A stretch of 64,000 bases of DNA. Origin: Parafrankia elaeagni (lineage in GTDB: Bacteria > Actinomycetota > Actinomycetes > Frankiales > Frankiaceae). The translations under genes were made by a program, and so were the position numbers. The notes under the pieces were generated by a model. The model was not told the DNA's origin. It did not search any database and worked only from the letters and a program-made list of their open reading frames with translations. The stretch is from the NCBI RefSeq assembly GCF_000374165.1, contig NZ_KB893671.1, positions 310,193 to 374,192 of the forward strand, read 5' to 3'. Shown piece after piece: positions 25,853 to 41,680 of this stretch; within the stretch, counting starts at the first letter, position 1; the number at the start of each line of letters is the position of its first letter.

Positions 25853-25936
25853 GGGTCCGGTGATCTGACACGGCGGCCGGTTCCTCGCCGCGAGGTCGGG
25901 TTCAGCGTCGGAGTGTGGACCATGGCGGTCCGGCTG

Positions 25937-27499
25937 TCAGTCGTCCATCCACAGCTGGTCGGGCAGCAGGGACCCGAGACCGTACTGCTCGAAGCCGGAG
26001 ACCCTGGCGTTCGCGACGACCCCGGGGGTCGTGCGCATGAGGAAGACCGCCGGAACCAGATCGGCCAGCCGCTTCTGCACAGTTCCGTAGGCAGCCCGAC
26101 GGTCCGCCTCGGAGCTGGCGGACCCACCGGTCCGCAGGGCCCGGTCCAGTTCCGGGTCGGCGACGCCGGACAGGTTCGCCAGGGAGTTTCCGGCGAAGAC
26201 GGTCGCCAGCCGCGGCTCGGGATCGATGAAGATCGCGGTCGAGGTGGCCGCGTCGAAGTCATGGGTCGTGCGTAGCGCGGCGAGCTCGGCGACCTGGATC
26301 GTACGGATCTCGACCTTCACGTTCCGGAATCTGCTGAGCTGGGCCTGGACGTTCTCCGCGGTCAGCCGGTTCTCCGAGGTCGGAACGTTGGTGTAGGTGA
26401 AGGTGAGCGGTTTTCCCGCGGCGGCCAGCTCGTCGAACAGGCGCTGGGCGGCAGGCCGGTCCGTCCTGCGCAGCGGAGTGTCCGAGTAGAAGGGTGAGCT
26501 CTTCGTGAACAGTGTGGTGGCCGGCTCCGCGGCGCCGTTGTAGACCGCGAGGTTCAGGTCGTCCATGTCGAGGGCGAGGGCGAGGGCCCGCCGGGCGCGG
26601 ATGTCGTCGAACGGTGGCCGGCGGCTGTTGAGCGCGATGAGCGTTCCGCCGGACAGGGGCATGACGGCGGTGGCCAGGCCGGCGTCCGTGGCCTTGCCGA
26701 GGTTGGCCGGGCTCGACTCGATGGCCAGGTCAGCGCCGCCGGTGACCACCGTGTTCAGCCGCTGCGTGGCGTCGGGCACCGCGCGCAGCGTGAGACTGGC
26801 CAGGTACGGTCGGGGCTGGTCCCAGTAGCGGGAGTTTCTGGTCAGCTCCAGGGTGCTGTTGCGCGTCCAGCTGCGCAGGGTGAACGGCCCCGCGCCGATC
26901 GGCCTGGCGTCGAAGGCCTCCCGCCCCTGCCGCAGGGCGGCCGGCGAGGCGATCCAGTTCAGTGTCGAGGTCAGAATCGACTCGGCATACCTCGGTGACG
27001 GGGACGCCAGACTGACGCTCAGCGTCGTGGCGTCCACCACCGCGGAGGATGTGATCACCGAGGCCTCCGCGCGCGCGGTGGAGCCGGTGGTCGGGTCCTT
27101 GGCGCGGTCCCAGTTGAACCGCACGGCCTCGGCGTTCAGCGGGGTGCCGTCCGAGAACACCAGACCGGGCCGCAGCTTCAGGGTGAACGTGGCGCCGCCG
27201 TCGGTGGTCGTGAACGACTCGGCCATCGAGGATCGCACCACACCGGTCTCGTCGGCTCGCAGCAGAGTTCCGTACAGCGCATTGCCCACGAGGGCGCCGA
27301 CCGTGAAGGCGTTGCCGAGGACGACCGGGTCCAGGGTGCGTACGTCGTTGATGAGGATGATCCGTGCGTGGCCACCGGACACCGGTGCTCCGGAGGGCGA
27401 GGCGGAGTCGGAGGCCGGGCTGGAACTGCCACCGCAGGCGCCGAGGAGGAGAGCGGTGGCGCAGACGGTGGCAGCGACGAGTAATCGCATTCTGTGCAT
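25937..27499 (-). CDS. Extracellular solute-binding lipoprotein (peptide/nickel family 5)
   Basis: ABC-importer substrate-binding protein of family 5 (oligopeptide, nickel, opine types), 520 residues. Lipoprotein signal MRLLVAATVCATALLLGACG with lipobox LGAC; Ser-rich linker; then ILINDVRTLDPVVLGN, GLVFSDGTPLNAEAVRFNWDRA, IGAGPFTLRSWTRNSTLELTRN-type motifs and RARRALALALD. GGAG is five bases before the ATG. No permease or ATPase gene is near, so it must work with a transporter elsewhere or as a sensor. Possibly co-transcribed with the AraC gene 45 bp upstream. Confidence 0.92.
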   Translation of the reverse strand: MHRMRLLVAATVCATALLLGACGGSSSPASDSASPSGAPVSGGHARIILINDVRTLDPVVLGNAFTVGALVGNALYGTLLRADETGVVRSSMAESFTTTDGGATFTLKLRPGLVFSDGTPLNAEAVRFNWDRAKDPTTGSTARAEASVITSSAVVDATTLSVSLASPSPRYAESILTSTLNWIASPAALRQGREAFDARPIGAGPFTLRSWTRNSTLELTRNSRYWDQPRPYLASLTLRAVPDATQRLNTVVTGGADLAIESSPANLGKATDAGLATAVMPLSGGTLIALNSRRPPFDDIRARRALALALDMDDLNLAVYNGAAEPATTLFTKSSPFYSDTPLRRTDRPAAQRLFDELAAAGKPLTFTYTNVPTSENRLTAENVQAQLSRFRNVKVEIRTIQVAELAALRTTHDFDAATSTAIFIDPEPRLATVFAGNSLANLSGVADPELDRALRTGGSASSEADRRAAYGTVQKRLADLVPAVFLMRTTPGVVANARVSGFEQYGLGSLLPDQLWMDD

Positions 27500-27544
27500 G
27501 AGGACTCCGAGAGCTTCGTGGGGCCGGCCGAGGCGCGTCCGAGC

Positions 27545-28378
27545 TCAGTGGATACGGGTGCGAACGCGCTGACGATAGGTGCTGGGCGCCTCACCCGCGT
27601 AGCGGGTGAACGCCCGGGTGAAGGCGCTGACGCTCTGGAAGCCGACGGCGACGGCGATGTCGATCACGTTCAGTTTGTCGCCGTCCTGCGCGAGCATGGC
27701 CATGGCCCTCAGGAGGCGGCTCTCCAGGAGGTACTGCCGCCAGGACATTCCGGTCGCGGTGTGGAACGCCCGGCGCAGCGACCGTTCCGAGGTGCCCACC
27801 GCGGCACACAACCTGGGCAGGGTGACCTCGGCGAGGTGTTTGTCGGTGTAGTCCATGGCCGCGGCCACCAGCGAATCGCTGGCGGTCGGCAGACACAGCG
27901 GGGTCTCGTGTTCGAGCCATTCGACGACGAGAGAGGCGAGGACATCGAAGAAGGAATCGGCCATGGGATCCCGTTGGGTCCGGTTGATCGGCCACCTTTT
28001 GCCGTACAGAATCATCTCACGGATCACCGGCGCGGCGGCCAGCACACGTACCCGGTCGCCTCCCGGCACGTTCATCGCCGGGTCGAAGAAGACCGAGACG
28101 GCCTTGACGTTCGTCCAGGTGCTCGAATGTGACGTGCCGGCGGGAATCCAGACGGCCTGCTGGGGAGGCAGCAGGTAACGGGTGGTCGCGGTCTCGACCT
28201 GGATGACGCCCTCCAGCGCGTATTCCAGCTGGTGCAGGTCGTGCAGATGCCACCCGGTGACGACTTCGTCTCCCACCTCCTTGGCCCAGGTACCGGCCCG
28301 GACGGCGTGAGCGTCTCCACCGTGGGTCCTGGCGCTCCAGACGGGTAAATTCCGGTCGGGACTTTCTGCGGGGATCAT
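27545..28378 (-). CDS. AraC-family transcriptional regulator
   Basis: 277 residues: N-terminal cupin-like sensor domain (about 15-110; HDLHQLEYALEGVIQVET, QQAVWIPAGTSHSS) and C-terminal double-HTH domain (about 175-275; VTLPRLCAAVGTSERSLRRAFH, GMSWRQYLLESRL, VIDIAVAVGFQSVSAFTRAF). Belongs to the AraC group that binds small effectors. It lies at the end of the catabolic region whose four units carry a direct-repeat element with 20-bp period, the pattern AraC proteins bind, so it is the best candidate regulator. No clear Shine-Dalgarno before the ATG. Confidence 0.92.
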   Translation of the reverse strand: MIPAESPDRNLPVWSARTHGGDAHAVRAGTWAKEVGDEVVTGWHLHDLHQLEYALEGVIQVETATTRYLLPPQQAVWIPAGTSHSSTWTNVKAVSVFFDPAMNVPGGDRVRVLAAAPVIREMILYGKRWPINRTQRDPMADSFFDVLASLVVEWLEHETPLCLPTASDSLVAAAMDYTDKHLAEVTLPRLCAAVGTSERSLRRAFHTATGMSWRQYLLESRLLRAMAMLAQDGDKLNVIDIAVAVGFQSVSAFTRAFTRYAGEAPSTYRQRVRTRIH

Positions 28379-28471
28379 GATGTGACGTTAGTGCAGATCC
28401 TCACCTCGGCAAAGTCTTGACATGAGCCCGGTGGGTGGACTGTGTGCCGGCCGGGCGGTGCGAACCCGGCA

Positions 28472-29659
28472 TCAGCGCCCGGCCGTCTCCCACCACGACG
28501 CCGGCGGCCTCTCAATTCGGTAGAGCTTCTCGGCGTTGTCCCACAGGATTTTGCGGCGGGCGCCCGGGTCGAGGTGGCCGAGACCGGAGGAAATGGTCTC
28601 CTGGATGTTCTCGAACAGGCAGGTGACGTGCGGGAAATCAGTTTCGAACATCACGTTGTCGATCGGCACGAGATCGAGGAAGTGCTTCGGCGCGACGGAT
28701 TCGAACCAGTAGGTGACGTAGACACTCTGGCGGAACAGCTCCGACGGCAGCACATCCCCCTTCTGGCGTTCCCGGCCGGGCCTGAACGCGCCCAGCCAGC
28801 TGTAATCGGTGGCTTCCAGCATGAACGGCAGCCAGCCGATTCCGCTTTCGACCGAGACGAACTTCAGTTCGGGGTGGCGGGAGAGCACGCCGGAGGTGAT
28901 GAGGTCGGAGCACTGGACGCCGTTCTTCATGAACAGGCTGACCGCGGTGTAGGCCTGGGCGCCTTCGGCCCGGTGCGTCGCGTAGCGTTCCGGCGTGGAC
29001 AGTTCGAGGGTGTCACCGGCACTGCCGATGTGGAAGTGGATGGGCAGCCCCGTCTCGCGGGCCACCTCCCACAGCGGGTCCCAGTGTGCCGCGCCGAGCA
29101 CCGGCAGCCCGTAGCGCTGTGGCTCTCCGGTGAACAGGATGCCGCGTGCGCCCAGCGGAGCGCACCGCTCGATCTCCCGGACGGTCTGTCGGATGTCCCA
29201 GAAGGGGGTGGCGACCACCGGCAGCAGCCGGCGCGAGTCAGCCGCGGACCATTCCAGCAGGAAGTCGTTGTAGGCCGAGACGCACAGCAGTTTCAGGCTG
29301 TCGTCCTTCAGCTTCAGGAAGTTCTCGCTGCCGAATCCACCGACGTTCGGATAGAGGACCTGTGCCCAGATTCCGGCCGCATCCATGTAGCGGAGTCGGG
29401 CGTCGGCCTGGTAGGCCGCCGGGTGGCAGTCCTCGTAGGTCTGCGGATAGTCGGGCGGGAAGGTCGGCCAGCCGGCGACCGCCGTCGCGCCGACCGGCGC
29501 CAGTCTTTCACCGCCCAGCACCCAGGTGTCGGCCGTTCCCTGCCGCACCACGAACGGAACTTCCTCACGGTATTTCCGCGGTACCCGGGCGGTCCACACG
29601 TCCGGCGGTTCGGTGATGTGACTGTCCGCATCGATGATCAGTTCTGGGGTGGGTGTCAA
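28472..29659 (-). CDS. Amidohydrolase-2 family protein (decarboxylase-like)
   Basis: 395 residues of the amidohydrolase 2 family, which includes ACMSD- and gamma-resorcylate-type metal-dependent decarboxylases and hydrolases. The metal site starts with DADSHITEP (Asp-x-His), continues with LPIHFHIGS and ends with MFETDFPHVTCL (Asp). Homologous in layout to the second amidohydrolase at 38.7 kb. Its own promoter region holds one copy of the 27-bp element shared by the catabolic units. Reaction unknown; a C-C cleavage step on a ring-derived acid is plausible. Confidence 0.85.
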   Translation of the reverse strand: MTPTPELIIDADSHITEPPDVWTARVPRKYREEVPFVVRQGTADTWVLGGERLAPVGATAVAGWPTFPPDYPQTYEDCHPAAYQADARLRYMDAAGIWAQVLYPNVGGFGSENFLKLKDDSLKLLCVSAYNDFLLEWSAADSRRLLPVVATPFWDIRQTVREIERCAPLGARGILFTGEPQRYGLPVLGAAHWDPLWEVARETGLPIHFHIGSAGDTLELSTPERYATHRAEGAQAYTAVSLFMKNGVQCSDLITSGVLSRHPELKFVSVESGIGWLPFMLEATDYSWLGAFRPGRERQKGDVLPSELFRQSVYVTYWFESVAPKHFLDLVPIDNVMFETDFPHVTCLFENIQETISSGLGHLDPGARRKILWDNAEKLYRIERPPASWWETAGR

Positions 29660-29725
29660 TTTTCCCTCCTCGGTCCGGGGGCTGTTCGCTCCCGTTTCAT
29701 CATCGGTGCCCGGGAGGCCGATCGT

Positions 29726-29752
29726 CTTTGCGTTATCGGTCAGTTTCTTGCC
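29726..29752 (-). promoter_or_regulatory. 27-bp direct-repeat element, copy A
   Basis: On the minus strand: GGCAAGAAACTGACCG, five variable bases, GCAAAG. It lies 67 bp before the start of the amidohydrolase gene and points toward it. The GCAAG and GCAAAG repeats are 20 bp apart. About 21 bases downstream a GATGAT motif recurs, as in the other copies. Confidence 0.75.
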
Positions 29753-29760
29753 CGTGGCGG

Positions 29761-30216
29761 CTACGGTTTTTCCGCCGCGCGCCCGGTTTCCGGCGGGTCG
29801 GCGGCCGTTCCGGTCGCCGTCGGTTCGTCCGTCGTCGGTTTGTTCGCCGGCGGCAGGTGCACGGTCGTGAGCCGGCGCACGCCCTTCTTCAGCACGGTGA
29901 CCCGGCCGGTGGCCCCCGCCCGGCAGGCGAGCCGCACGCGGGTGAGGTCCCGCCGGGCCGCGCCGGGGAGGCGGTTCGCCAGGACGTCCCGCTCGTCCGC
30001 CCCGACGGGGGTGAGGTGCTCCGCCCCGCCGAGCACCTCCACCCGGCAGATCATGCAGGTGGCCTGGCCGTGGCAGGTGGTCGGCCAGTGGTAGCCGTGC
30101 CGCCAGGCCGCCTCGATGATCGTCTCACCGGGAGCGACCTGGAGGTCGGCGCCGACGGGCTCGACCCGCACCACCACCACCACCGTCTGCTGCCGTTCGC
30201 CGTTCCGGTCGGTCAT
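29761..30216 (-). CDS. 2Fe-2S ferredoxin
   Basis: 151 residues; electron carrier, probably for the Rieske oxygenase or flavoprotein upstream. The cluster ligands are C-x5-C-x2-C in CHGQATCMIC and a distant Cys in RLACRAG, the adrenodoxin-type spacing. TTVEVAPGETIIEAA-like N-terminal strand pattern (LQVAPGETIIEAAWRHGY) fits. A low-complexity Thr/Pro/Ala tail (last ~35 residues) is unusual. ATG at 30216 overlaps the flavoprotein stop by 4 bp (ATGA). No ferredoxin reductase gene is nearby. Confidence 0.9.
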   Translation of the reverse strand: MTDRNGERQQTVVVVVRVEPVGADLQVAPGETIIEAAWRHGYHWPTTCHGQATCMICRVEVLGGAEHLTPVGADERDVLANRLPGAARRDLTRVRLACRAGATGRVTVLKKGVRRLTTVHLPPANKPTTDEPTATGTAADPPETGRAAEKP

Positions 30217-31901
30217 GCCTGCGCCCGGTCCGCGGCCGTCGCGGCGAGCCGGGCGACATGCTTCATACCGATGTAGGAGAAGACGAAGCTCGCACCGATG
30301 CTCGCTCCCGCACCGGGATAGGTCCGCCCCATCACCGACGCGGTGCAGTTCCCGGCCGCGTACAGGCCGGGAATCGGCGCGTGGTCGGCGTCGAGTACCC
30401 GCGCGTACTCGTCGCACAGCAGCCCACCGCTGGTACCGACATCGCTCGGATAGATCTCGACGGCGTAGAACGGTGGTTTCGTCAGGGGTGCGAGCGAGGC
30501 ATTCGGCTTGTTTCCATAGTCACCCTGGTATCTCTCGTGGGCGCCGTCACCGCGATGGAAGTCGGGGTCCGTACCCTGTTCGGCGAAGTGATTGAAACGG
30601 GAGACCGTCCCGGCCAGCCCGGTCGGGTCCACGCCGCAGAGCCGGGCCAGCTCCTCCAGTGTGTCCGCCTTCTTCATGAAGCCGCTGGAGAGCCAGTCGT
30701 CGGGTGTTTTCAGGCGCAGCGAGAAGAGATACCGGCTTCGATTGTGGGAGTCCATGACGAGCCAGCTCGGAATGGACTCGCCGGTGGCGTTGTGGGCGTA
30801 CATCTGCCGCCCGGCCTCCATGTAGGCCACGGACTCGTTGAAGTACCGCCGGCCGGCGCGGTCGACGATGATCGAGCCCGGCTTGCTGCGCTCGCCGTTG
30901 AGCATGCTCGGCCGGCCGTCAGGCCGGATCCCGGCCGGGATCCACCACGCCTCGTCCATGAGATCGACCGCCGCGCCGATCCGCATGGCCGCTTCGATCG
31001 CCTCCCCGGTGTCCCCGGGGCTGGCGCTGGTCCACGTCGCGTCGTTCGGCTGCCTGGAGTACCGCCGGCGCATGCCGGGGTTGCGGGCGAACCCGCCCGA
31101 GCTCAGCAGCACGGCGTGCCGGGCGCGGATGCGGATGGTCTCGCCGTCCCGGATGGCGACAACCCCGGTGACCCGGCCGTCCTCCACGATCAGGTCGGTC
31201 AGGCCGGTGCCCGTCCACACGGTCGCCCCCGCCTCGAGGGTGGCCTTCAGGGCCTGGGCGACCAGCGCGCCTCCGTTCGCCAGCCGTGCCTGGCGCAGGA
31301 GCCTGCCGGCGGCGGTCCGCAGCCCGACCCGCGCGGCGGTCACCATGGCCCTCGGTCGGCGTTTGACCAGCTGGAGGATGGCCGCCTCCCGGGTGAGGAC
31401 GACGATGCCGAGCCCCACCGTCATCCCGGGCATGAGCCTGTCGTACCACGGCCCCAGCTCCCTGCCGTCGGTCACGACCGGCTCGAGGGAACGCCCGCGC
31501 GAGCAGCCGCCGCGCACGCCGGCCATCTCCGCGTAGTAGTCGCTGTACCCCTCGCACCGCTGGAACCGCATCCCCCTGCCCACCAGGAAGTCGACCATGG
31601 CGGAGCCCTCGACGATGTAGGCCCGCCGGCGTTCGGGGGAGGACGCCGCGGTGGGCTCACCGACGACCGAGTCGAAGTAGGCCAGCCCGTCGGCCAGCGA
31701 GTCGGGGATCTTCGCGGCCCGCATGAGCGGGTTGTCCGGCAGCCACAGCACGCCGCCGGACATGGCTGTCGCACCGCCGATCAGGGGCTGTTTCTCGATC
31801 ACCAACGTCTGCAGCCCGGCGGCCGCCGCGGTCACGGCCCCGCTGAGCCCGCCTCCTGATCCGACGACGACGACGTCGGTGGTGTGGTCCGGTTCGGACA
31901 T
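30213..31901 (-). CDS. FAD-dependent dehydrogenase, KstD / fumarate-reductase type
   Basis: 562 residues, cytoplasmic. FAD-binding Rossmann motif VVVGSGGGLSGAVTAAAAG at the N-terminus, GGATAMSGGVLWLP and, near the C-terminus, GLYAAGNCTASVMG and TYPGAGASIGASF. This layout is that of 3-ketosteroid delta-1-dehydrogenases and related flavin-linked dehydrogenases that form C=C bonds beside a carbonyl. GAGGG precedes the ATG. Between the Rieske oxygenase and the ferredoxin in one operon. A steroid substrate is possible but not shown; any cyclic ketone acid would fit. Confidence 0.88.
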   Translation of the reverse strand: MSEPDHTTDVVVVGSGGGLSGAVTAAAAGLQTLVIEKQPLIGGATAMSGGVLWLPDNPLMRAAKIPDSLADGLAYFDSVVGEPTAASSPERRRAYIVEGSAMVDFLVGRGMRFQRCEGYSDYYAEMAGVRGGCSRGRSLEPVVTDGRELGPWYDRLMPGMTVGLGIVVLTREAAILQLVKRRPRAMVTAARVGLRTAAGRLLRQARLANGGALVAQALKATLEAGATVWTGTGLTDLIVEDGRVTGVVAIRDGETIRIRARHAVLLSSGGFARNPGMRRRYSRQPNDATWTSASPGDTGEAIEAAMRIGAAVDLMDEAWWIPAGIRPDGRPSMLNGERSKPGSIIVDRAGRRYFNESVAYMEAGRQMYAHNATGESIPSWLVMDSHNRSRYLFSLRLKTPDDWLSSGFMKKADTLEELARLCGVDPTGLAGTVSRFNHFAEQGTDPDFHRGDGAHERYQGDYGNKPNASLAPLTKPPFYAVEIYPSDVGTSGGLLCDEYARVLDADHAPIPGLYAAGNCTASVMGRTYPGAGASIGASFVFSYIGMKHVARLAATAADRAQA

Positions 31902-31956
31902 GGTGAATCCCTCGGCTGCGCTGGATGGTTGTGCACTGGATGGTCGGGCCGGACCG

Positions 31957-33300
31957 TCAGCCGGCCAGATACCGGTCGAGCTCGATGTGCATGTTGCTGA
32001 TGATCTGTTCCATCTCGGTGGCGAGACGGTGCTGCTCGTAGCTGCGGGAGCGCAGGCCGCGCTGCTGGCGCTCGATGTTGCCGAAGTCCTGGCGCGGAAT
32101 CAGGCCCCAGTTCTCGGTGTCGTCCGGGGCGAAGCGGCCCTTCAGCGATGCCCGGCCGGGCTCCTCGGCCTCGGGATAGGTGGTCAGCGACCACACCTCG
32201 AAGCGGCACCACTCGGGGTCGTCCCGGTACGGACGGGCCCGGTAGGAGAGCGCGTTGCCGAACTGGGGCAGGAGCATGAAGTTCGGGAAGACGAACACCT
32301 GCCCGCCCCACAGCCGCAGGCCCTCCGGCGTCGGCCGCATCGGGATACCCGCGCCCTCGGCGTAGTCGATCAGCGCCCGCACGGCGGCCGTCGCGAAGTC
32401 CTCGCCGGGCTGCAGCCGGTTGCGTACCGACCGGAAGACATGGAGATCGCGTTCGAGGGTCATGGCGTCCTGGCCCTCCCAGAGGACCCGTGACCGCTCC
32501 AGGAAGGTCTCTCCGCCGCGCCCCTGGGAGATGCCCCCCGCGGTCGGGTCGAAACGGCCCTGGAAGCGCCCGTGGCCGTTCTCGAAGCCGGCGTACTCGA
32601 CGTTCCCGAACGGGTAGTCCTCGCCCATGTCGAAGGTCAGCTGCGGGTGGGTGGCCATCACGTGGTAGCCCTCGTGGAAGGCCTCCTGGGCCACCTTCCA
32701 GTTGGCGTTGAGAATCGTCTCCTTCCACCACCAGACCCGTAGGTTCTCGGCACGTACCGAGTCGAGCAGCCGGGCCACCGGGGACAGGAACTCCCGCAGC
32801 GGGCGGGCGTCGGGGTCCAGGTTGACCCAGGCGCAGCCGGCGAAGGTGTCGACCCTGCACTCCTGCAGCCGGATGTCCTCCGGGCGCAGGCACTCGGGGG
32901 CAAAGCCCTCGGCGCCGTAGACGAACGAGCTGGTCCCGTCGAGATTCCAGCGCCAGCCGTGGAACGGGCAGACGATCTGCCCGCCGGGCAGCCGCCCGGA
33001 ACCGTTGCAGAGCTGGGTGGCCCGATGGCGGCAGGCGTTGTGGAAGGCCTTCACGGATCCGTCGTGCTGGCGGATCAGGAGAACGGACTGGTCGCAGATC
33101 TCGTATTCGACGAAGTCCCCGGTGCGGGGAATCTCCTCCAGCCGGCACGCCATCTGCCAGACGCGTGGCCAGAGAAATTCCTTCTCCAGCTCGAAGAAGG
33201 CACGGTCGTAGTAGCGTTCGCGGGGGACGTGCAGCGTGTCCCGCATCGCGAACGGGACGTCCCGGCTGTGTGCCGGCCTGCGGTCGTCGGTCATCGCCAT
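31957..33300 (-). CDS. Rieske-type ring-hydroxylating oxygenase alpha subunit
   Basis: 447 residues. Rieske [2Fe-2S] ligands Cys90-x-His92 and Cys111-x2-His114 (ACRHRAT, VCPFHGW), and a non-heme iron site in NWKVAQEAFHEGYHVMATHP (His209, His213). It adds oxygen to an aromatic or alicyclic ring using electrons from a ferredoxin. No small beta subunit is encoded nearby, suggesting an alpha-only enzyme. Sits 55 bp downstream-strand of the lipoyl gene and before the flavoprotein in the same run of genes. Substrate unknown. Confidence 0.92.
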   Translation of the reverse strand: MAMTDDRRPAHSRDVPFAMRDTLHVPRERYYDRAFFELEKEFLWPRVWQMACRLEEIPRTGDFVEYEICDQSVLLIRQHDGSVKAFHNACRHRATQLCNGSGRLPGGQIVCPFHGWRWNLDGTSSFVYGAEGFAPECLRPEDIRLQECRVDTFAGCAWVNLDPDARPLREFLSPVARLLDSVRAENLRVWWWKETILNANWKVAQEAFHEGYHVMATHPQLTFDMGEDYPFGNVEYAGFENGHGRFQGRFDPTAGGISQGRGGETFLERSRVLWEGQDAMTLERDLHVFRSVRNRLQPGEDFATAAVRALIDYAEGAGIPMRPTPEGLRLWGGQVFVFPNFMLLPQFGNALSYRARPYRDDPEWCRFEVWSLTTYPEAEEPGRASLKGRFAPDDTENWGLIPRQDFGNIERQQRGLRSRSYEQHRLATEMEQIISNMHIELDRYLAG

Positions 33301-33329
33301 TGTTCGCAGCCTTTCCTTCTCCGCAGGGT

Positions 33330-33572
33330 TCAGCCGGTCGCCTCGATCTTCCCGATCTCCTCCCCGATCTCGTAGACCGTGCCGATCGAGCCGCTCCAGC
33401 GGACGACGCCGGAGCCACCGGCGGAGATCTCGGACTCGACCTTGTCCGTGGCGATGACGAACAGGGGTTCGCCCTCGGTGACGGACGAGCCGTCCGCCAC
33501 CAGGAGATCGACGAGTTCCGCCTCGGAGATCGCCACCGATACCCGGGGGATGCGGACGATGAAGTCAGCCAC
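33330..33572 (-). CDS. Stand-alone lipoyl carrier domain
   Basis: 80 residues, a single biotinyl/lipoyl attachment domain: VDLLVADGSSVTEGEPLFVI then ATDKVESEI, with Lys44 in the DKVE turn as the lipoylation site, and IGTVYEIGEEIGKIE at the end. There is no peripheral-subunit-binding or acyltransferase domain, so it is not a complete E2. GTG start overlaps the E1beta stop by 8 bp, showing tight coupling. It probably accepts an acyl group from the E1 pair; the next acceptor is unknown. Confidence 0.85.
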   Translation of the reverse strand: MADFIVRIPRVSVAISEAELVDLLVADGSSVTEGEPLFVIATDKVESEISAGGSGVVRWSGSIGTVYEIGEEIGKIEATG

Positions 33573-34596
33573 GGATTCCTGCCTTTGCCGGGTCCGTGTG
33601 TGCCGGGTCCGGGCGCAGGGTCTGGCGGACCGCCGCGACGATGCGCTCCACACTGGGATAGATGGATGACTCGAGTGCCGCGGGCGCCGGATTGGGAACG
33701 AACCGCGCGCCCACCCGCTCGATCGGGGCCAGCAGCGTGCCGAACAGCTCACGCTGGACGATCGCGGTGATCTCCGCGCCGGGCCCGGCGAAGCCCACCG
33801 CGTCGTGCACGACGACGGCCCGGCGGGTACGCCCCACGGACCGGACCATCGCGGCGACGTCGAGGGGGACGAGGGTGCGCAGGTCGAGTACTTCGGCGCT
33901 GATCCCGTCGGTGGCGAGCCGGTCGGCCGCCTTCAGCACCTCGACCACCGCCCGGCCGTAGCTGATCAGGGTCACGTCCGTGCCCGGCCGCTTCACCTCG
34001 GCCTCGCCGAGCGGAATGGCGAAGGCCGGATCGAGCGGGACCATCCCGCGCTGGCCGCGCAGCCGGATCGGCTCCAGGAAGATGCAGGGGTCGTCGTCGA
34101 AGATGGCCGTGGTGAGCAGGCCCTTGGCGTCCCGCGGGGTCGCGGGCGTGATCACCTTCAGCCCCGGGATGTGCATGAACCACGCCTCCAGCGACTGGGA
34201 ATGCGTCGCTCCGGTGCTCAGCCCGCCGTAGACCTGCGTCCGGACGGTGATCGGGGCGCCTGTCCGGCCGCCGGTCATGAACCGCAGCTTCGCCGCGTTG
34301 TTGATGATCTGGTCGGCGGCGATGCCGATGAAATCCATGATCATTATTTCGGCGACCGGGCGGAAACCCGCCATCGCGGCACCGATGGCCGCGCCCACGA
34401 TCGCCGCTTCGGAGATCGGTGTGTCGAGCACGCGCTGCGCGCCGTACCTGGTCGACAGGCCGGCCGTCGGACCTGACGCCCCGGGGTCGGCGATGTCCTC
34501 GCCCAGCAGGAAGACGCGCTCGTCGCGCTCGAGTGCCTGGTCCAGAGCGAGATGCAGCGCCTCGGTCATGGTCATCCGTCGTTCGTCCACGTCCAC
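33565..34596 (-). CDS. 2-oxo acid dehydrogenase E1 beta subunit
   Basis: 343 residues, transketolase-like beta subunit of a thiamine-diphosphate dehydrogenase. Features: VFLLGEDIADPG, RVLDTPISEAAIVGAAIGAA (the Glu that activates thiamine), GLSTGATHSQSLEAWFMHIPG, FLEPIRLRGQRG and VTLISYGRAV. GTG start at 34596; an ATG seven codons later is an alternative. It pairs with the E1alpha gene upstream. Closest functional types by layout are branched-chain, acetoin or pyruvate dehydrogenases, which cannot be separated by eye. Confidence 0.92.
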   Translation of the reverse strand: MDVDERRMTMTEALHLALDQALERDERVFLLGEDIADPGASGPTAGLSTRYGAQRVLDTPISEAAIVGAAIGAAMAGFRPVAEIMIMDFIGIAADQIINNAAKLRFMTGGRTGAPITVRTQVYGGLSTGATHSQSLEAWFMHIPGLKVITPATPRDAKGLLTTAIFDDDPCIFLEPIRLRGQRGMVPLDPAFAIPLGEAEVKRPGTDVTLISYGRAVVEVLKAADRLATDGISAEVLDLRTLVPLDVAAMVRSVGRTRRAVVVHDAVGFAGPGAEITAIVQRELFGTLLAPIERVGARFVPNPAPAALESSIYPSVERIVAAVRQTLRPDPAHTDPAKAGIRG

Positions 34597-34666
34597 CTCA
34601 CTGCGGGCAGGTCGTCCCGGCGGGCCGCGGCCCTCGGAACGCCCTCGGAACGGGTGTGGGTGCCGG

Positions 34667-34692
34667 GGCCGGGCCTGGGCTCAGGCCCGGCC
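34667..34692. terminator. Intra-operon hairpin between E1alpha and E1beta
   Basis: GGCCGGGCCT and AGGCCCGGCC pair perfectly (10 bp) around a 6-base loop in the 106-bp gap between the two E1 genes. Could be an attenuator, a partial terminator or an RNA-stability element that sets the ratio of the subunits. No T-run. Confidence 0.5.
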
Positions 34693-34702
34693 GGGCCGGT
34701 GG

Positions 34703-35788
34703 TCAGGCCGGGCAGTTGCGGGCGTCGGCATACACGTCACGGTCGATCTCCGCCAGCGCCGTGGGCGGCGCCGCCTGCGCGGCGGCCAGCGCCTCCTCCA
34801 CCGACGCGGCCGCGGCCGCGTCGATCGTGTCGAGGTCGCCCGCGGTGCAGGCGCCCGAGCCCACCAGACGTGCCCGGAACCGCGGGACCGGGTCGGCTTC
34901 GGCCGCGGCGGCCAGCCGCTCGGCCGGAATGTAGGCCATCGGGTCGCCGAAGTAGTGGCCGCGCAGCCGGAACGTCACACATTCCAGCAGCGTCGGGCCG
35001 CGCCCCGAGCGTGCCCGCTCGACCGCCTCCGCCACGGCCGACACGAGGGCGACCGGATCGTTGCCGTCGACCCGCGTGCCCGGCATGCCGTACCCGGCAG
35101 CCCGGTCGGCGACATGTTCGATCCTCATCGTGTGCTCGGTCGGGGTCATCTCGGCGTAGAGGTTGTTCTGGCAGAGCAGCACCAGCGGCAGATCCCACAG
35201 CGCGGCCATGTTGGCCGCCTCGTGGAACGAACCGGTGTTCGTCGCCCCGTCCCCGAAACTCGCCACCACCACCCGGTCGAGCCCCAGGCGCTGCGCGGCC
35301 ATCGCCAGGCCCACCGCGACCGGCGGCCCGGCCCCGACGATCCCGGTCGAGAGCATGACTCCGACCTCGGGGCTGGCGATGTGCATCGTCCCGCCCTTGC
35401 CCCGGCCGGCCCCGACCTGCCGGCCCAGCATCTCGCCGTAGATCTCCACCAGCCCGACGCCCTTGCCGATGAGGTCGTGCAGGCCCCGGTAGGTGGTGAC
35501 GAGCTGGTCGTCGGACCGCAGGCACACCCCCATCGCCGCGGCGATCGCCTCCTGGCCCCGGGAGGGCCAGTACACGGTGAGCAGCTCACCCGAGGAGATG
35601 CCCCGGCTCAGCCGGTCGTCGGCCGCCTTCATGAGCGTCATCAGTTCGTACAGCCGCCGCCCCGTCGCCGGCGCCAGCGACGCCAGGTCGTCGCGGTCGT
35701 CGCGGTCGTCGCGGTCGTCCGGATCGCCGCCGCCGGGCAGGCCGGGCCGGTCGGTCAGGTCGGTCGAGTCGTGCGGAGTACCTGCCAT
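34703..35788 (-). CDS. 2-oxo acid dehydrogenase E1 alpha subunit
   Basis: 361 residues. The thiamine-diphosphate motif is ASFGDGATNTGSFHEAANMA with LCQNNLYA, and GRGKGGTMHIA is the phosphorylation-loop-like region of E1alpha. An acidic low-complexity stretch DDRDDRDDRDD (three copies of a 9-bp repeat) precedes the domain. ATG overlaps the FAH stop by one base (TGATG). Together with E1beta it decarboxylates a 2-oxo acid, or cleaves a beta-dicarbonyl or acetoin-like compound, and passes the acyl group to a lipoyl arm. Confidence 0.92.
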   Translation of the reverse strand: MAGTPHDSTDLTDRPGLPGGGDPDDRDDRDDRDDLASLAPATGRRLYELMTLMKAADDRLSRGISSGELLTVYWPSRGQEAIAAAMGVCLRSDDQLVTTYRGLHDLIGKGVGLVEIYGEMLGRQVGAGRGKGGTMHIASPEVGVMLSTGIVGAGPPVAVGLAMAAQRLGLDRVVVASFGDGATNTGSFHEAANMAALWDLPLVLLCQNNLYAEMTPTEHTMRIEHVADRAAGYGMPGTRVDGNDPVALVSAVAEAVERARSGRGPTLLECVTFRLRGHYFGDPMAYIPAERLAAAAEADPVPRFRARLVGSGACTAGDLDTIDAAAAASVEEALAAAQAAPPTALAEIDRDVYADARNCPA

Positions 35789-36600
35789 CAGGCGTCGCCA
35801 CCTTCTGTCACGCGCCCCGACACGGCCCCGGCGAGATCATCCGCGACCAGCTGGTTGGCCAGCACGCCCACCTCCTCGACCGTGGACGTGTAGTGGTCGC
35901 CGACGTCGACATCCGCGGCCGGCGGCGGGGTCCCCAGCGTCACGACGTCGCCCGGGAGGAGGCTCATGTGGCGGCTGACGTGACTCAGAATCTCCCCGGG
36001 CGTGAACCGGTAGTACCGGGTGCTTCCCGACTGCACCCGGACGCCGTTGCGGGCGCCGGTAATCGAGAGTCCGTCCATCACGCGCTCCTCGGTGAGGTCC
36101 CGACGGATCCACGGGCCCCAGGAGGCGAATCCGTCGATGGACTTGGCCGTCGCCCACAGCCCGGGGCGGACGTACTCGGCTGCGGTGACATCGTTGAAAA
36201 CGGTCCAGCCGAAGATTCCCTCGGAGGCCTCGTCGGGCGACGCGGCGCGCAGCCGGCGCCCGACGACGACCGCGAGCTCCGCCTCCATCTGCACCGGGCC
36301 GGTCAGCACGGCCGGGGCCCGGATCCGTCCGCCGTCGCCGCTGGCGTGGCGGCACGCCTTGGGCACCCACACCGGCGAGACTCCCGCGGGGCGGGTCGTT
36401 CCCGGTTCCAGAAACCCCCCCATCACGGCGATGAACCGGACGTCGCGCAACGGCGGCCCCAGGGTCACCTCCGAAAGGGGCAGGGACTTTCCGGTGCGTC
36501 GGGTGTCGCCGAACACGTCGCCGTCCAGGACGTGGAAGCGACCGTCCGCCACCTCCCCAAAACATGACGTCCGGTCGATGACGGTTCGGCCGAGTAACAT
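35788..36600 (-). CDS. Fumarylacetoacetate hydrolase family protein
   Basis: 270 residues from the ATG at 36600 after GGAGGCG; the frame is open farther up but without a site. FAH-superfamily features: PVQMEAELAVVVGRRLR (acidic metal ligands), GWTVFNDVTAAEYV, LTEERVMDGLSITGARNG and LLPGDVVTLGTPPPA. The superfamily includes C-C hydrolases and 2-oxo acid decarboxylases in ring-cleavage pathways. First gene of the seven-gene unit running to the ferredoxin, with the 27-bp element 116 bp upstream. Confidence 0.9.
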   Translation of the reverse strand: MLLGRTVIDRTSCFGEVADGRFHVLDGDVFGDTRRTGKSLPLSEVTLGPPLRDVRFIAVMGGFLEPGTTRPAGVSPVWVPKACRHASGDGGRIRAPAVLTGPVQMEAELAVVVGRRLRAASPDEASEGIFGWTVFNDVTAAEYVRPGLWATAKSIDGFASWGPWIRRDLTEERVMDGLSITGARNGVRVQSGSTRYYRFTPGEILSHVSRHMSLLPGDVVTLGTPPPAADVDVGDHYTSTVEEVGVLANQLVADDLAGAVSGRVTEGGDA

Positions 36601-36715
36601 GACGGGCGCCTCCACGAACGGGAATCGTGTGCACTGGCATCGTCTGGGAGCCATCCGGTTCGGAGAGACCGGCGGTGGCCCGTCCGTTCATCATCTTCGG
36701 TGCCGCGGTGACATT

Positions 36716-36742
36716 CTTTGCAAAAGCGGTCAGGTCCTTGCC
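36716..36742 (-). promoter_or_regulatory. 27-bp direct-repeat element, copy B
   Basis: On the minus strand: GGCAAGGACCTGACCG, five variable bases, GCAAAG, in the gap before the FAH gene and oriented toward it. GATGAT follows about 20 bases later. Same internal spacing as the other copies. Confidence 0.75.
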
Positions 36743-36769
36743 TGTTTCGGCCGGCTCCGGGCCGGGGTG

Positions 36770-37954
36770 TCACCGGTCGTTGGTGAACAGGAAAGCCTGG
36801 GCGAGCGGACCGCCGCCGCCGGTGACGAGGCCGACCCGCGGGCCCGTGACCTGGCGCGCGCCGGCCTGGCCGCGCAGCTGGAGAAAGGTCTCGTAGGCCA
36901 GGCCGAAACCGAGGAAACGCCCTTCCGACAGCTGGCCGCCGGAGGTGTTCAGCGCGATGCCGCCGTCGCGGGCGAGGCGCTCTCCCCCTTCCACGAACGC
37001 ACCGGCCTCGCCGGGGGCGCAGAAGCCGAGTGCCTCCAGCCAGAGCGGGACGAAGATGCTGAAGCCGTCGTAGATGCCGGTGACGTCGACGTCCTCGGGG
37101 CGCAGCGCCGTGCGTGACCACAGCTGTTCCGCGGCCGCGGTGGCGGCCATGTGGTCGAGGTCCGGCCAGAACTCCCAGCTCGACGTGCTGGGCCGTCCAC
37201 CGCCGACGGCTTCGAAGAACACCGGCCGCTCGACGTCCCGGCGGTGGGTGACGTGGGAGACGACGAAGGCGATCGCACCGTCGGACGGGACGTCACAGTC
37301 GTAGAGGCACAGCGGATCGCTGATCATCCGGCTGCTCAGATAGTCGTCGAGGGTCAGCGGCTCGCGGTACACGGCGGCCGGGTTGTCGGCGGCGTTGCGG
37401 CGGTTGTTCACGGCGATCCAGCCGAGCTGCTCGCGGGTGGTGCCGTACCGGTCGAAGTGGCGGCGGGCCCACAGGGCTGCGAACTGCACGGGGGAGCCGA
37501 CTCCGTAGGTGGTCTTCCACGGCGCCACCGCGGAGCCGGACAGGACGGCGGGGCGTCCCCCTCCGTTCTGGGCGGTCGCCTCGGTGACGGTCCGGTAGAC
37601 GAGCACGTGTCGGGCCAGCCCGGCGGCCACCGCGTGGGCGGCGATCCCGAGAACACCGATGACGTTGGCACCGTCGCCGCCGCCGAGGATCCACGACAGG
37701 TCCAGCCGCAGCAGGGAGTGCAGGTCGCCGGCGCGCGGGCCGCCGAAGCCGTGCGGGGCGGCGCTGTCGGGCCAGGTGGTCAGTCCGTCGATGTCACGGG
37801 GTGTCAGGCCCGCGTCGGCGATGGCGGCCAGGCAGGCGTCCAGGGTCAGGTCGATCGCGGGCCGGCCGAGCCGGCGGCCGGTCCGCGAGCGACCGATGCC
37901 GGAGACGATCGCCTGGCGCTCGATGTTCGCGGGGGTCGCGGGGGCCGCGCTCAT
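36770..37954 (-). CDS. Thiolase-like (Ltp/SCP-x type) protein, no obvious nucleophilic Cys
   Basis: 394 residues of the thiolase-like lipid-transfer-protein group. The helix that carries the nucleophilic Cys in true thiolases reads GGGDGANVIGVLGIAAHAV and has no Cys. VTGIYDGFSIFVPLWLEALGF resembles the YDxF motif of Ltp2-type retro-aldolases, and NTSGGQLSEGRFLGFGLAYE follows, with Arg where SEGY is usual. It overlaps the DUF35 stop by 4 bp; Ltp2 needs a DUF35 partner for C-C bond cleavage in steroid side-chain breakdown. A C-C lyase role is therefore more likely than thiolysis. Confidence 0.85.
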   Translation of the reverse strand: MSAAPATPANIERQAIVSGIGRSRTGRRLGRPAIDLTLDACLAAIADAGLTPRDIDGLTTWPDSAAPHGFGGPRAGDLHSLLRLDLSWILGGGDGANVIGVLGIAAHAVAAGLARHVLVYRTVTEATAQNGGGRPAVLSGSAVAPWKTTYGVGSPVQFAALWARRHFDRYGTTREQLGWIAVNNRRNAADNPAAVYREPLTLDDYLSSRMISDPLCLYDCDVPSDGAIAFVVSHVTHRRDVERPVFFEAVGGGRPSTSSWEFWPDLDHMAATAAAEQLWSRTALRPEDVDVTGIYDGFSIFVPLWLEALGFCAPGEAGAFVEGGERLARDGGIALNTSGGQLSEGRFLGFGLAYETFLQLRGQAGARQVTGPRVGLVTGGGGPLAQAFLFTNDR

Positions 37955-38400
37955 GCGGCCGATGTCCGTCGGGCCGGCCGGAACACCGGGACGTAGACCT
38001 CGCCGCGCTGGTCGAAGGTCACCTCGACCGGGAGTCCGGTGACGACCGCCTCGATCTCGCAGTCCACGATGTTGGTCAGCAGATGCAGGTCGGGCTGCTC
38101 GTCGAGCACCACCCGCGCCACGACGTAGGGGGGCGGGAAACCCGGCACCCACCCACGTCGCACCACCGTGTGGGACAGGACCGTCGCCCGGCCGGACACC
38201 GGCCGTGAGGTGACCGAGCGGGCGAAGCAGTGCGGGCAGACGGGTGCGGGCGGATGGAACAGCCGGTCGCACGCCGTGCACGCTCTGATCAGGAGCTGTC
38301 CCTGCGCGCCACCGAGCCAGAAGTCGCGACTGTCGTCGTCGACCGCCGGCACGGGTCGGTCGTCGCCCGCCACCGGATCGCCTCCCGTCGTTCGGGTCAC
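37951..38400 (-). CDS. DUF35 / OB-fold protein with zinc ribbon
   Basis: 149 residues. GTG start with GGAGGGG upstream. Rubredoxin-like zinc ribbon CTACDRLFHPPAPVCPHC (C-x2-C-x10-C-x2-C), then an OB-fold with TVLSHTVVRRGW, PPYVVARVVLDEQP and VTFDQRGEVYVPVF. DUF35 proteins bind acyl-CoA and pair with thiolase-like enzymes. Stop overlaps the start of the thiolase-like gene (ATGA), so the two are translated together and probably form a complex. Confidence 0.9.
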   Translation of the reverse strand: MTRTTGGDPVAGDDRPVPAVDDDSRDFWLGGAQGQLLIRACTACDRLFHPPAPVCPHCFARSVTSRPVSGRATVLSHTVVRRGWVPGFPPPYVVARVVLDEQPDLHLLTNIVDCEIEAVVTGLPVEVTFDQRGEVYVPVFRPARRTSAA

Positions 38401-38526
38401 CCGCCCCCTCCGCCATCCATGGCCGTCGGCACGGGGATCAGCTGCTGGAAGGGCGTTGTCTCCGCTCGAAGGAGAGCACCGGTTGTCCCGTCCCCGGATC
38501 ATCCTCGGTGACCGGACGCCGGCCGT

Positions 38527-38553
38527 CTTTGCGCGCCCGGCCAGGTCCTTGCC
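38527..38553 (-). promoter_or_regulatory. 27-bp direct-repeat element, copy C
   Basis: On the minus strand: GGCAAGGACCTGGCCG, five variable bases, GCAAAG, directed toward the DUF35-thiolase-like unit. A GATGAT lies about 23 bases downstream. It is back-to-back with copy D, 82 bp away. Confidence 0.75.
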
Positions 38554-38634
38554 CGGTTCGGCCACCGGACGCGGCCGGATCCGGCCGGATGCGGCGTGCG
38601 CCCGACGGAGGCGCGACGATCCACGGCCGCAACA

Positions 38635-38661
38635 GGCAAGGATCTGGCCGGTGATGCAAAG
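38635..38661 (+). promoter_or_regulatory. 27-bp direct-repeat element, copy D
   Basis: On the plus strand: GGCAAGGATCTGGCCG, five variable bases, GCAAAG, directed toward the amidohydrolase-CoA transferase unit. GATCATGATG follows about 20 bases later and lies only a few bases before the ATG at 38694, so a transcript starting there would be leaderless or nearly so. Confidence 0.75.
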
Positions 38662-38693
38662 ACGGTCAGGCGCCGCCGGTCGATCATGATGCC

Positions 38694-39989
38694 ATGCGCA
38701 GGAATGATTTCATTCTCGTCAGCGTGGACGATCACGTGATCGAACCCCCGGACATGTTCGACGGCTTCATCCCGGCCGCGTACGCCGACCGCGCGCCACG
38801 GCTGGTCTCGGACGAACGAAGCGACAAGTGGGTGTTCGGTGCGGGTGAGGCCCGCAGCTCGGGGCTGAACGCGGTGGCGGGCCGGCCCCCGGAGGAGTAC
38901 GGCGTCGAGCCGATGCGACTGTCCGAGCTGCGCCGCGGGTGTTACGACGTCCACGAGCGGGTGAAGGACATGAACGCGAACGGCGTTCTCGCGCAGCTCA
39001 ACTTCCCCTCGATGGCCCGGTTCTGCGGCCAGTTCTTCGCCAGCCGCGTCGACCAGGACCCCGAGCTCGCCCTGGCGGTGCTGCGGGCCTACAACGACTG
39101 GCACATCGACGCCTGGTGCGGCTCCTATCCCGGCCGGTTCATCCCCTGCTCCATTCCGCCGATCTGGGATCCGCAGCTGATGGCCGCGGAGATCCACCGG
39201 ACCGCCGCCAAGGGCTCGCACGCCGTCAGTTTCTCCATGAATCCGCACGCTCTCGGCCTCGGTCTCCCGTCCCTGCACAGCGACCACTGGGACCCGTTCT
39301 GGGCGGCGTGCGAGGACACCGGGACGGTCGTGTGCATGCACATCGGGTCCGGTGCCGTCGGTGTCGTCACCTCCCCGGACGCCCCGATGAACGTCGAGAT
39401 CACCTGCGCGGGCTTCAAGAGCTTCCCGACCGCGGCCGACCTCGTCTGGTCGCCCGTCTTCCAGAAGTTCCGCGGGCTCCGGGTGGCACTGTCCGAGGGC
39501 GGAATCGGCTGGATCCCGTACTTCCTGGAGCGCGCGGACTACACCTACCGGCGCCACAGGGCCTGGACCCGGCCCCGGCTCGGCGGCCGGCTGCCCAGCG
39601 AGATCTTTCTCGAGCACATCCTGACCTGCTTCATCGTCGACGACTTCGGGGTGGCCAACATCGACCGGCTCAACGAGGACATGGTGAGCTGGGAATGCGA
39701 CTACCCGCATTCCGACAGCACCTGGCCGAACTCGCCCGAGGTCGTCGAGGAGGCGGTGCGCGGGCTGACCGACAGGCAGATCGACAAGGTCACCCATCTC
39801 AACGCGATGCGGGCCTTCTCGTTCGACCCGTTCTCGATCCGGCCGCGTGAGCGGTGCACCGTCGGGGCGCTGCGGCAGGAGGCGGTCGGCCACGACATCT
39901 CGATCGTGTCGCACGGCGTTCGTGGGGACGGCGCCGCGGTCGACCTCGGGCAGTTCGCGCAGTCCCACCAGCCCGCCCCGTCGGCATGA
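38694..39989 (+). CDS. Second amidohydrolase-2 family protein
   Basis: 431 residues. Metal-site motifs VSVDDHVIEPPDMF (Asp-x-His), VVCMHIGSGAVG, ALSEGGIGWIPYFLERADY and SWECDYPHSDSTWPNSP (Asp). Homologous in layout to the gene at 28.5 kb but about 35 residues longer, so the two may act on successive intermediates or two substrates of the same pathway. No Shine-Dalgarno is visible before the ATG, consistent with a leaderless transcript from copy D. Overlaps the CoA-transferase gene by ATGA. Confidence 0.86.
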   Translation: MRRNDFILVSVDDHVIEPPDMFDGFIPAAYADRAPRLVSDERSDKWVFGAGEARSSGLNAVAGRPPEEYGVEPMRLSELRRGCYDVHERVKDMNANGVLAQLNFPSMARFCGQFFASRVDQDPELALAVLRAYNDWHIDAWCGSYPGRFIPCSIPPIWDPQLMAAEIHRTAAKGSHAVSFSMNPHALGLGLPSLHSDHWDPFWAACEDTGTVVCMHIGSGAVGVVTSPDAPMNVEITCAGFKSFPTAADLVWSPVFQKFRGLRVALSEGGIGWIPYFLERADYTYRRHRAWTRPRLGGRLPSEIFLEHILTCFIVDDFGVANIDRLNEDMVSWECDYPHSDSTWPNSPEVVEEAVRGLTDRQIDKVTHLNAMRAFSFDPFSIRPRERCTVGALRQEAVGHDISIVSHGVRGDGAAVDLGQFAQSHQPAPSA

Positions 39990-41221
39990 GCGCCGCACCG
40001 CTGGCCGCCGCACCGCTGGCCGGAGTGCGTGTCCTGGAGGTCGCCTCCCACGTGTTCGTCCCGATGGCGGGGGCCGTGCTCGCGGAATGGGGCGCCGACG
40101 TCGTCAAGATCGAGCACCCCACCACCGGAGATCCCTACCGGGGGCTGGTCACCGCCGGCCTGCACAAGCTGTGGAACGGCGTGGACGTGCAGTTCCAGGC
40201 CACCAACCGGGGAAAGCGCTCCGTCGGCCTGGACCTGAAGCATCCCGAGGGTCGGCGCCTGCTGTCCCGCCTGATCGCCGCCAGCGACGTGTTCGTGACG
40301 AACCTGCGCGCCGACACCCGCGCCCGGCTGAAACTCGACGTCCCCGACGTGCGCGCCGACAACCCCTCGGTGATCTACGTGCGGGGCACCGCGTTCGGCG
40401 CCCGCGGGCCCGACGCCGGCCGGGGCGGCTACGACGCCGGTGCCTACTGGGCGCGCAGCGGGATGCAGCAGGTCCTCACCGCCCCGGACGCGACGTGGCC
40501 GGCGATGCCGCGCCCGGCATTCGGTGACGTCGTCGGCGGCCTGACCATCGCCGGCGCCGTCAGCACCGCCCTGTTCCGCCGGCTGGCGACCGGTGCGCCG
40601 TCGGTGGTCGACGCCTCGCTGCTCGCGTCCGGTATGTGGCAGGTCCAGATGGACCTCATGAACGCCGCCCTGGACGGGGCGGCGACGCCGGTGCGCCCCC
40701 GCAGCCGCTATGAGGCCCCGAACCCGCTGATGCTGCCCTACCGGACCGCCGACGGCCGCATCCTCGTCCTGCAGATGCTCGCCCCGGACCGCCACTGGCC
40801 CGGCCTCTGCAAGGTTCTCGGCCAGCCCGAGATGGCCACGGACCCGCGTTTCGCCGACATCGACGCCCGCCGCCACAACTCGCGGGCCTGCATCGAACGG
40901 CTCGAAGGCATCTTCGTCGAACGGACCCTCGACGAGTGGCGGCGGATCCTCGCCGAGTTCGACGGCGAGTGGGTGCCCAGCCAGCTGCCCCACGAACTCG
41001 CCGCCGATCCGCAGGTCCGGGCCAACAGCTACCTCGCCCACATCGACGTGGGTGCGGGCGAGGCCCTGCCGTTGGTGACGACGCCCGTGCAGTTCGACGA
41101 GCAGCCCGGCGCGCCGGTGCGGGCCCCCGAGCACGGTGAGCACACCGAGGCCGTGCTGCTCGAACTCGGTCTCGGCTGGGACGAGATCACCGCCCTGAAG
41201 GACAGCTCGGCCATCCTCTGA
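39986..41221 (+). CDS. Family III CoA transferase (CaiB/BaiF type)
   Basis: 411 residues; transfers CoA between organic acids. Family landmarks: PLAGVRVLEVASHVFVPMAG, LAEWGADVVKIEHPTTGDPYR, NRGKRSVGLDLKHPEGR, ASDVFVTNLR and VVDASLLASG. The catalytic Asp of this family is expected in the segment GGYDAGAYWARSGM. It probably supplies the CoA ester used by the thiolase-like/DUF35 pair. Second gene of the plus-strand unit; the region ends 57 bp later with a convergent TPR gene. Confidence 0.9.
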   Translation: MSAAPLAAAPLAGVRVLEVASHVFVPMAGAVLAEWGADVVKIEHPTTGDPYRGLVTAGLHKLWNGVDVQFQATNRGKRSVGLDLKHPEGRRLLSRLIAASDVFVTNLRADTRARLKLDVPDVRADNPSVIYVRGTAFGARGPDAGRGGYDAGAYWARSGMQQVLTAPDATWPAMPRPAFGDVVGGLTIAGAVSTALFRRLATGAPSVVDASLLASGMWQVQMDLMNAALDGAATPVRPRSRYEAPNPLMLPYRTADGRILVLQMLAPDRHWPGLCKVLGQPEMATDPRFADIDARRHNSRACIERLEGIFVERTLDEWRRILAEFDGEWVPSQLPHELAADPQVRANSYLAHIDVGAGEALPLVTTPVQFDEQPGAPVRAPEHGEHTEAVLLELGLGWDEITALKDSSAIL

Positions 41222-41278
41222 CCGGCCGCGGCGTTCCGCGGTGCAGTGCGGGTGGGTCTGGCACGGAGCCCGAGAGCC

Positions 41279-41614: not shown

Positions 41615-41680
41615 GACGGTTCCTCCGTCCCTTCCCGGCTCGTCCGGTGATCGTCGTCAGAGGGTCGTGGCCGTGCTCGC

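Follow-up and report, generated by a model that had tools for sequence, protein, structure and literature searches.

Four direct-repeat elements and the units behind them

The 64,000-nucleotide stretch of the Parafrankia elaeagni genome analysed here (contig NZ_KB893671.1, positions 310,193 to 374,192; hereafter the window) carries a cluster of enzyme genes in which four matching 27-bp elements are set, together with araC, a minus-strand gene (27545-28378) for a 277-residue AraC-family regulator that is the proposed activator. Judging from the sequence, the four elements are very probably operators of a single AraC/XylS-type activator, for which the protein made from this gene is the likeliest candidate and which would jointly switch on four transcription units. 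An earlier note, made from the letters of the window, had placed copies at 29726-29752, 36716-36742 and 38527-38553 on the minus strand and at 38635-38661 on the plus strand, each facing a different unit; a pattern scan of the window recovers all four there with no mismatch to GGCAAGRANCTGRCCGNNNNNGCAAAG, and the gene layout agrees in setting each upstream of a unit of its own. Taken in the same order and at their full length, operator 1 (29719-29763, minus strand, 53.8 bits) precedes the gene for the amidohydrolase-like protein AmhA, operator 2 (36709-36753, minus strand, 54.9 bits) the series running from an FAH-family gene to a ferredoxin gene, operator 3 (38520-38564, minus strand, 54.8 bits) the DUF35 and thiolase-like genes, and operator 4 (38624-38668, plus strand, 55.0 bits) the genes for AmhB and a CoA-transferase.

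The element is rare outside these places. With up to three mismatches allowed, the window yields just the four copies, against an expectation of 0.01, and none of 100 shuffles held four; across the whole genome (7,589,313 bases, 135 contigs) the same tolerance gives seven places, the four exact ones and others with 2, 3 and 3 mismatches, and a reversed control pattern gives none. No further exact copy occurs in the rest of the 7.59 Mb, so the random genome-wide scatter that the note had named as its refutation is not seen. A 45-position profile ranks the four operators first in this genome at E 7.3e-12 to 1.8e-9; its training set included sites of the window itself and kept 23 45-mers from 28 distinct ones, three near-duplicates and two that were poor or out of register being dropped. 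In each genome 150 first-look candidates were scored, of thousands (150 of 5,479 here), and weaker sites may escape. The next place, on contig C114 (E 8e-4), matches profile positions 12-42 alone and has 2 mismatches to the 27-bp pattern; it was rejected as an operator and is read as coding sequence because it sits inside a long open frame resembling GAPDH, presumably glyceraldehyde-3-phosphate dehydrogenase, and almost identical letters recur in genomes without an AraC of this type. At one near-match locus (genome G000, the window's own, contig C48, about 91.2 kb; positions 1807-1851 of locus L006, loci being numbered L006 to L122 and related genomes G001 onwards), a paralogue-type repeat operator scoring 19.7 bits lies about 0.3 kb from the near match.

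The full site extends beyond the 27-bp element and consists of two direct repeats that together span 45 bp. This emerges from 32 distinct sites in six genomes, collected at up to three mismatches with GCAAAG, GAAAAG or GCGAAG required and locus L104 left out, which share TGGCCG-N6-GCAAG and TGRCCG-N5-GCAAAG, 20-21 bp apart; their consensus is tGGCCGnaAcgGGCAAGgActTGRCCGaangCGCAAAGACgGCC, then about 13 bases and CGATGATGa. GGCCG and GRCCG stand 21 bp apart and the GCAA repeats 20 bp apart, the latter spacing as the note had given it, and this is the direct-repeat arrangement of AraC/XylS class II sites. Because the sites were selected on the inner 27 bp, conservation within those bases is partly a product of that choice; for the same reason the outer GGCCG (kept in 25-30 of 32 sites per position), ACGGCC (23-32 of 32) and the downstream GATGAT are independent of it. 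GATGAT, with at most one mismatch, follows 20-23 bp downstream in 32/32 sites, several of them from close relatives, against a shuffled mean of 0.35 and maximum of 4, and with it the conserved stretch spans about 70 bp.

The window's own boxes follow at 21, 20, 23 and 20 bases, within the range that the note had claimed. GATGAT at 29699-29704, 36690-36695 and 38498-38503, all on the minus strand, would act as the -10 of units 1, 2 and 3, with predicted transcription start sites near 29692, 36683 and 38491. For unit 4, GATCAT at 38682-38687 on the plus strand has the offset of 20, so the predicted start falls on the AmhB ATG and the message would be leaderless; that ATG is supported by an alignment to the enzyme DitZ that begins at residue 1. 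A sigma-70 promoter scan of 25800-42000 found none, which says little since shuffles of this GC-rich DNA give just 0.6 expected.

The AraC protein and the lineage of its proposed operator

The regulator itself looks conserved. Its C-terminus holds the double helix-turn-helix of the AraC type (HTH_18, E 1.9e-24, 86.2 bits against a cut-off of 33.6, residues 190-271), and its N-terminus matches the cupin-like effector domain AraC_binding at 21.8 bits, barely above the cut-off of 21.1; Cupin_2, at 21.4 bits, lies below its cut-off of 27.2. The frame is intact, and nonsynonymous and synonymous divergence from the G001 copy are about 0.036 (dN) and 0.093 (dS), rough values since one G001 codon holds an N. 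A weak half-site that the note had seen beside araC at 28408-28422 did not hold up: GGCAAAG is present at 28408-28414, but it falls outside the top 12 profile places of the window, is oriented away from araC and, read by eye, overlaps the apparent araC -35. That promoter, TTGCCG-N16-TAACGT by eye within 28379-28425, ends six bases before the ATG and is kept in G001, and the araC message is possibly leaderless. No operator was found in araC's own promoter. Read-through from operator 1 is possible, and unit 1 may run on from AmhA into araC and the gene behind it, for a family 5 solute-binding protein (25937-27499, minus strand); no terminator-like site was found on the minus strand between 25800 and 29700. 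In G002 (contig C121) a homologue of the solute-binding protein (63%) has its own site 230 bp upstream.

Sites and regulator keep company across the order. The weight-matrix scan that the note had proposed, run over this genome and its relatives, gave the four operators as the top places here and confined strong matches (35, at E <= 1.2e-5) to 6 of 36 genomes: G000, G001, G002, G004, G031 and G033, with 4, 4, 4, 8, 5 and 10; five further genomes have matches at E 0.0017-0.0069 alone. AraC homologues (E <= 1e-50) occur in 26 of the 36, at 71% identity or more in just six, and AmhA (at least 87%) is present in exactly those six genomes that carry both such an AraC and strong sites. G001 and G004 fall in the genus group of the window's genome. 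Among named records, those nearest to the window in this AraC include Parafrankia colletiae Cc1.17 (92%), Pseudofrankia sp. BMG5.36 (74%) and P. soli NRRL B-16219 (71%). AMP-binding ligase genes in L100, L102 and L106 have a site in front of them too, as does a Peripla_BP_6 gene in L100 and L102 (sites at 9059 and 10278 in L100, 6326 and 8589 in L102 and 3557 in L106), so the regulon looks wider in relatives than in the window. In G033 (contig C223; L104, about 7761-8422), one good operator (53.3 bits) and one decayed one (27.1 bits) stand with broken pieces of the AmhA and AraC genes, which looks like a relic of the regulon.

Evidence that reaches beyond this block of relatives comes from distant AraC homologues. 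There are 34 loci whose AraC is 48-63% identical to the window's (the rows at or below 63% among 43, the remaining nine comprising L030 and the window clade including its duplicates), and in 31 of them TGRCCG-N15-TGRCCG, with at most one mismatch, lies next to araC on the divergent strand; in 112 kb of control DNA the pattern occurs at 0.09 per 500-bp region, with no exact copies. At L075 the zero-mismatch repeat is a different place from the site scoring highest on the profile, where one base is mismatched. L074 has the typical form, TGGCCGTTTCTGCAGGGTTCCTGGCCGAACGTGCGGAGACGGACA, with TACAAC 20 bases after GCGGAG, and this looks like a -10 at the position held by GATGAT in the window. Seventeen of the 31 repeat-bearing loci have no adjacent AmhB-like gene. 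Conversely, three paralogous Rieske-KstD-E1 clusters without an AraC match (Rieske about 82%, with E1, KstD and ferredoxin) have no site: their best scores are -9.3, -1.7 and 3.1 bits, against at least 48.6 bits for 30 of the 32 training sites. A GntR/FCD gene lies near two of these clusters (L121, L122); none is among three proteins scanned from the third, L120. The link from element to regulator, which the note had offered as its own inference, thus gains comparative support, given that the repeat follows the AraC lineage across genera and is missing from AraC-less paralogous clusters.

Several observations weigh against this reading. At 14 of these 34 loci the neighbour of araC on the divergent strand is an AmhB-like gene (43-48%), and there the site could track AmhB as well as AraC; similarly, co-occurrence in six genomes cannot single out AraC because sites, AraC and enzymes are inherited as a block. 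Three of the 34 loci (L078-L080) have no repeat at up to one mismatch, in 2 of the 31 (L034, L071) the repeat begins within the araC match, the repeats of L061 and L062 score -8.6 on the full profile, and the site of L030 lies downstream of araC. Many of the distant loci are related, and their counts are not independent events. The window, unlike most homologues, has no repeat at up to one mismatch in the roughly 410 bp before its own araC (the best has 2 mismatches). Finally, a terminator-like site lies on the minus strand within unit 2 (33200-33180, in the Rieske gene), at chance level in a region that holds fewer such sites than its shuffles.

On the protein side, a tree places the window AraC and seven others in one clade with 99/99 support, comprising the GCAAAG users and L030 (GCATTG). 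In the DNA-binding region, nine GCAAAG-clade rows, representing seven distinct proteins, were compared with 29 others, and then also with six more (L030, L061, L062, L078-L080). The clade is set apart throughout by Leu 190, Gln 248 and an insertion of two residues at 234-235; Ala 204 and Glu 219 failed as markers with the six included, the former being shared by L061 and L062 and the latter by L030. Position 248, by comparison with MarA, is presumably the start of the second recognition helix. The correlation between residues and operator counts as weak evidence because it comes from a single clade. More tentatively, a so far undescribed AraC subfamily with the operator code TGGCCG-N15-TGGCCG-N5-GCRRAG may control clusters across Frankiaceae, Nocardia, Rhodococcus and Actinomadura, many of them around DitZ/PtmU3-like amidohydrolase-fold oxygenases, with a Parafrankia/Pseudofrankia branch that may have shifted to GCAAAG together with DNA-binding residues, Gln 248 foremost, and that would thereby govern several units independently of its paralogues within one cell. 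L030, from a metagenome-assembled genome (AraC 69%), shows a third variant of the operator: a neat 21-bp repeat carrying GTCAATGAC/GCATTGACC stands at 10868-10912, upstream of a Rieske gene. One record, L041, is titled Rhodococcus sp. JCM 9791 and carries a cyanobacterial family in its taxonomy; it is probably mislabelled.

The enzymes of the four units

Unit 1 begins with AmhA (28472-29659, minus strand, 395 residues) and unit 4 with AmhB (38694-39989, plus strand, 431 residues), both Amidohydro_2 proteins whose best matches among solved structures are DitZ and PtmU3: AmhB matches DitZ (PDB 8UYR) at 5.4e-97 and PtmU3 (PDB 6OMP) at 2.5e-45, and AmhA matches them at 9.6e-37 and 9e-35. PtmU3 is grouped in one report with amidohydrolase-related dinuclear oxygenases (PMC10811679). 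AmhA and AmhB resemble both enzymes and may likewise be dinuclear oxygenases rather than hydrolases. The family III CoA-transferase of unit 4 follows at 39986-41221 on the plus strand (scanned as open reading frame 39854-41221).

Units 2 and 3 lie on the minus strand. Unit 2 opens with the FAH-family hydrolase (35788-36600, its start set by GGAGG before the ATG at 36600, other starts being possible) and continues through E1 alpha (34703-35788) and E1 beta (33565-34596) of a 2-oxoacid dehydrogenase-like enzyme, a stand-alone lipoyl domain of 80 residues (33330-33572), a Rieske ring-hydroxylating oxygenase alpha subunit (31957-33300, 447 residues), a 3-ketosteroid-delta-1-dehydrogenase-like flavoprotein (30213-31901, 562 residues; NF009478, 860 bits, cut-off 789) and a 2Fe-2S ferredoxin (29761-30216, scanned as open reading frame 29761-30417). 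The lipoyl domain stands between the E1 beta and Rieske genes, and an 80-residue open reading frame is likewise placed in L120 and L121; no E2 or E3 turned up among the scanned cluster proteins. Unit 3 comprises a DUF35/ChsH2 OB-fold and zinc-ribbon protein (37951-38400, start uncertain) and a thiolase-like or lipid-transfer protein (36770-37957). The resemblance to DitZ and PtmU3 together with the KstD-like gene suggests, as a guess, a terpenoid or steroid-like substrate. The note's four-unit regulon of AraC/XylS type is now backed by comparison, but its catabolic role is still presumptive.

A proposed switch, its rivals and its relatives

The sites, their repeats and spacing, their conservation and their co-occurrence with AraC can be read from the letters themselves; AraC binding, activation, start sites, operon ends and inducer are proposed on that footing. 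An AraC dimer would bind the two 17-bp direct repeats, TGGCCG-N6-GCAAG and TGRCCG-N5-GCAAAG, the promoter-proximal one ending against the -35 with the -10-like GATGAT 20-23 bp on, in a class II layout. The inducer may be an acid of terpenoid or steroid-like type, either free or as the CoA ester. Induced AraC would then raise all four units together, AmhA, FAH to ferredoxin, DUF35-thiolase-like and AmhB-CoA transferase, and the AmhA transcript possibly continues through araC and the solute-binding protein gene.

That the same AraC works at the same sites by repression, or by repression without inducer, is unlikely. Direct repeats against the -35 might block polymerase, and some AraC proteins both activate and repress; against this, GATGAT matches the common -10 consensus poorly, as a promoter that depends on an activator would be expected to do. 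Position and orientation, moreover, fit class II activator sites, with CphR as a precedent (PMC6205950). Still less probable is that the sites are real and another protein acts on them, sites 3 and 4 having once belonged to a second AraC and being now orphaned or read by an AraC paralogue. In G001 the interval from site 3 to site 4 does contain an additional AraC, 72% identical to that of the window, and the window's flanks match G001 at 180/181 and 121/123 bases around a place from which about 1 kb, with this second araC, is absent; the window genome also holds three further AraC homologues at 45-56%. Loss in the window lineage is more likely than gain in G001, because the place between sites is the common one for araC: it is flanked by two divergent sites in G002, G004, G031 and G033, as is G001's second copy. 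The single remaining AraC would serve all four sites. Its low dN relative to dS and intact frame speak against the orphan reading, as do its place among the GCAAAG-clade proteins and the exactness in which sites 3 and 4 remain, and the one paralogue operator of the window genome that was compared (L084, contig C65) has GCCGCG instead of GCAAAG. An alternative sigma factor promoter, with GCAAAG as -35 and CGATGATGA as -10 and no AraC operator, is very improbable: it would suit conservation over about 70 bp that takes in GATGAT, and boxes 20-23 bp apart, but the upstream repeats are conserved as well, and in other genera the repeats beside AraC homologues are followed, at a similar distance by eye, by different -10-like letters such as TACAAC. 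A dispersed mobile repeat or chance, to which the mutual similarity of the four stretches and nothing more would point, can be practically dismissed, since no other exact copy exists genome-wide and the sites hold a fixed place before units and are kept in six genomes.

The switch, as an AraC operator pair, is not new in kind because XylS and CphR are already known. XylS at Pm of the TOL plasmid exemplifies class II activation in the AraC family, with direct repeats set in tandem at a spacing of about 21 bp next to the -35; the window shares the tandem repeats and their spacing, with a predicted place against the -35, and differs in half-site. CphR of Rhodococcus sp. YH-5B activates cphA2A1 through two imperfect 15-bp direct repeats from -35 to -69, of which the one nearer the start site overlaps the -35 hexamer (PMC6205950, which also cites an AraC/XylS consensus). 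Within what is accessible of that report, the likeness extends to an AraC-type protein, an actinobacterium, a presumed catabolic target and two direct repeats, in the window by a predicted -35, whereas the half-site there is TGCA-N6-GGNTA against TGRCCG-N5/6-GCAAR in the window, and one target promoter is described against the window's four. DitZ and PtmU3, by comparison, resemble the regulated enzymes and not the switch. No description of this regulon was found among the records listed from the PMC literature, as covered by titles and abstract openings with subscription papers outside its scope, and the regulon seems undescribed. Its interest lies in an operator that runs through the lineage and has altered in a single branch. 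A Frankia-type cluster that had no name can now be tested as a regulon, with one protein put forward as its candidate regulator. The search pattern finds further members in relatives: in G002 a solute-binding protein, and in G031, G033 and G004 AMP-binding ligases as well as a periplasmic binding protein. Related AraC proteins with matched operators form a set for mapping specificity, and a sister species with two AraC copies beside the window genome with one provides a natural comparison.

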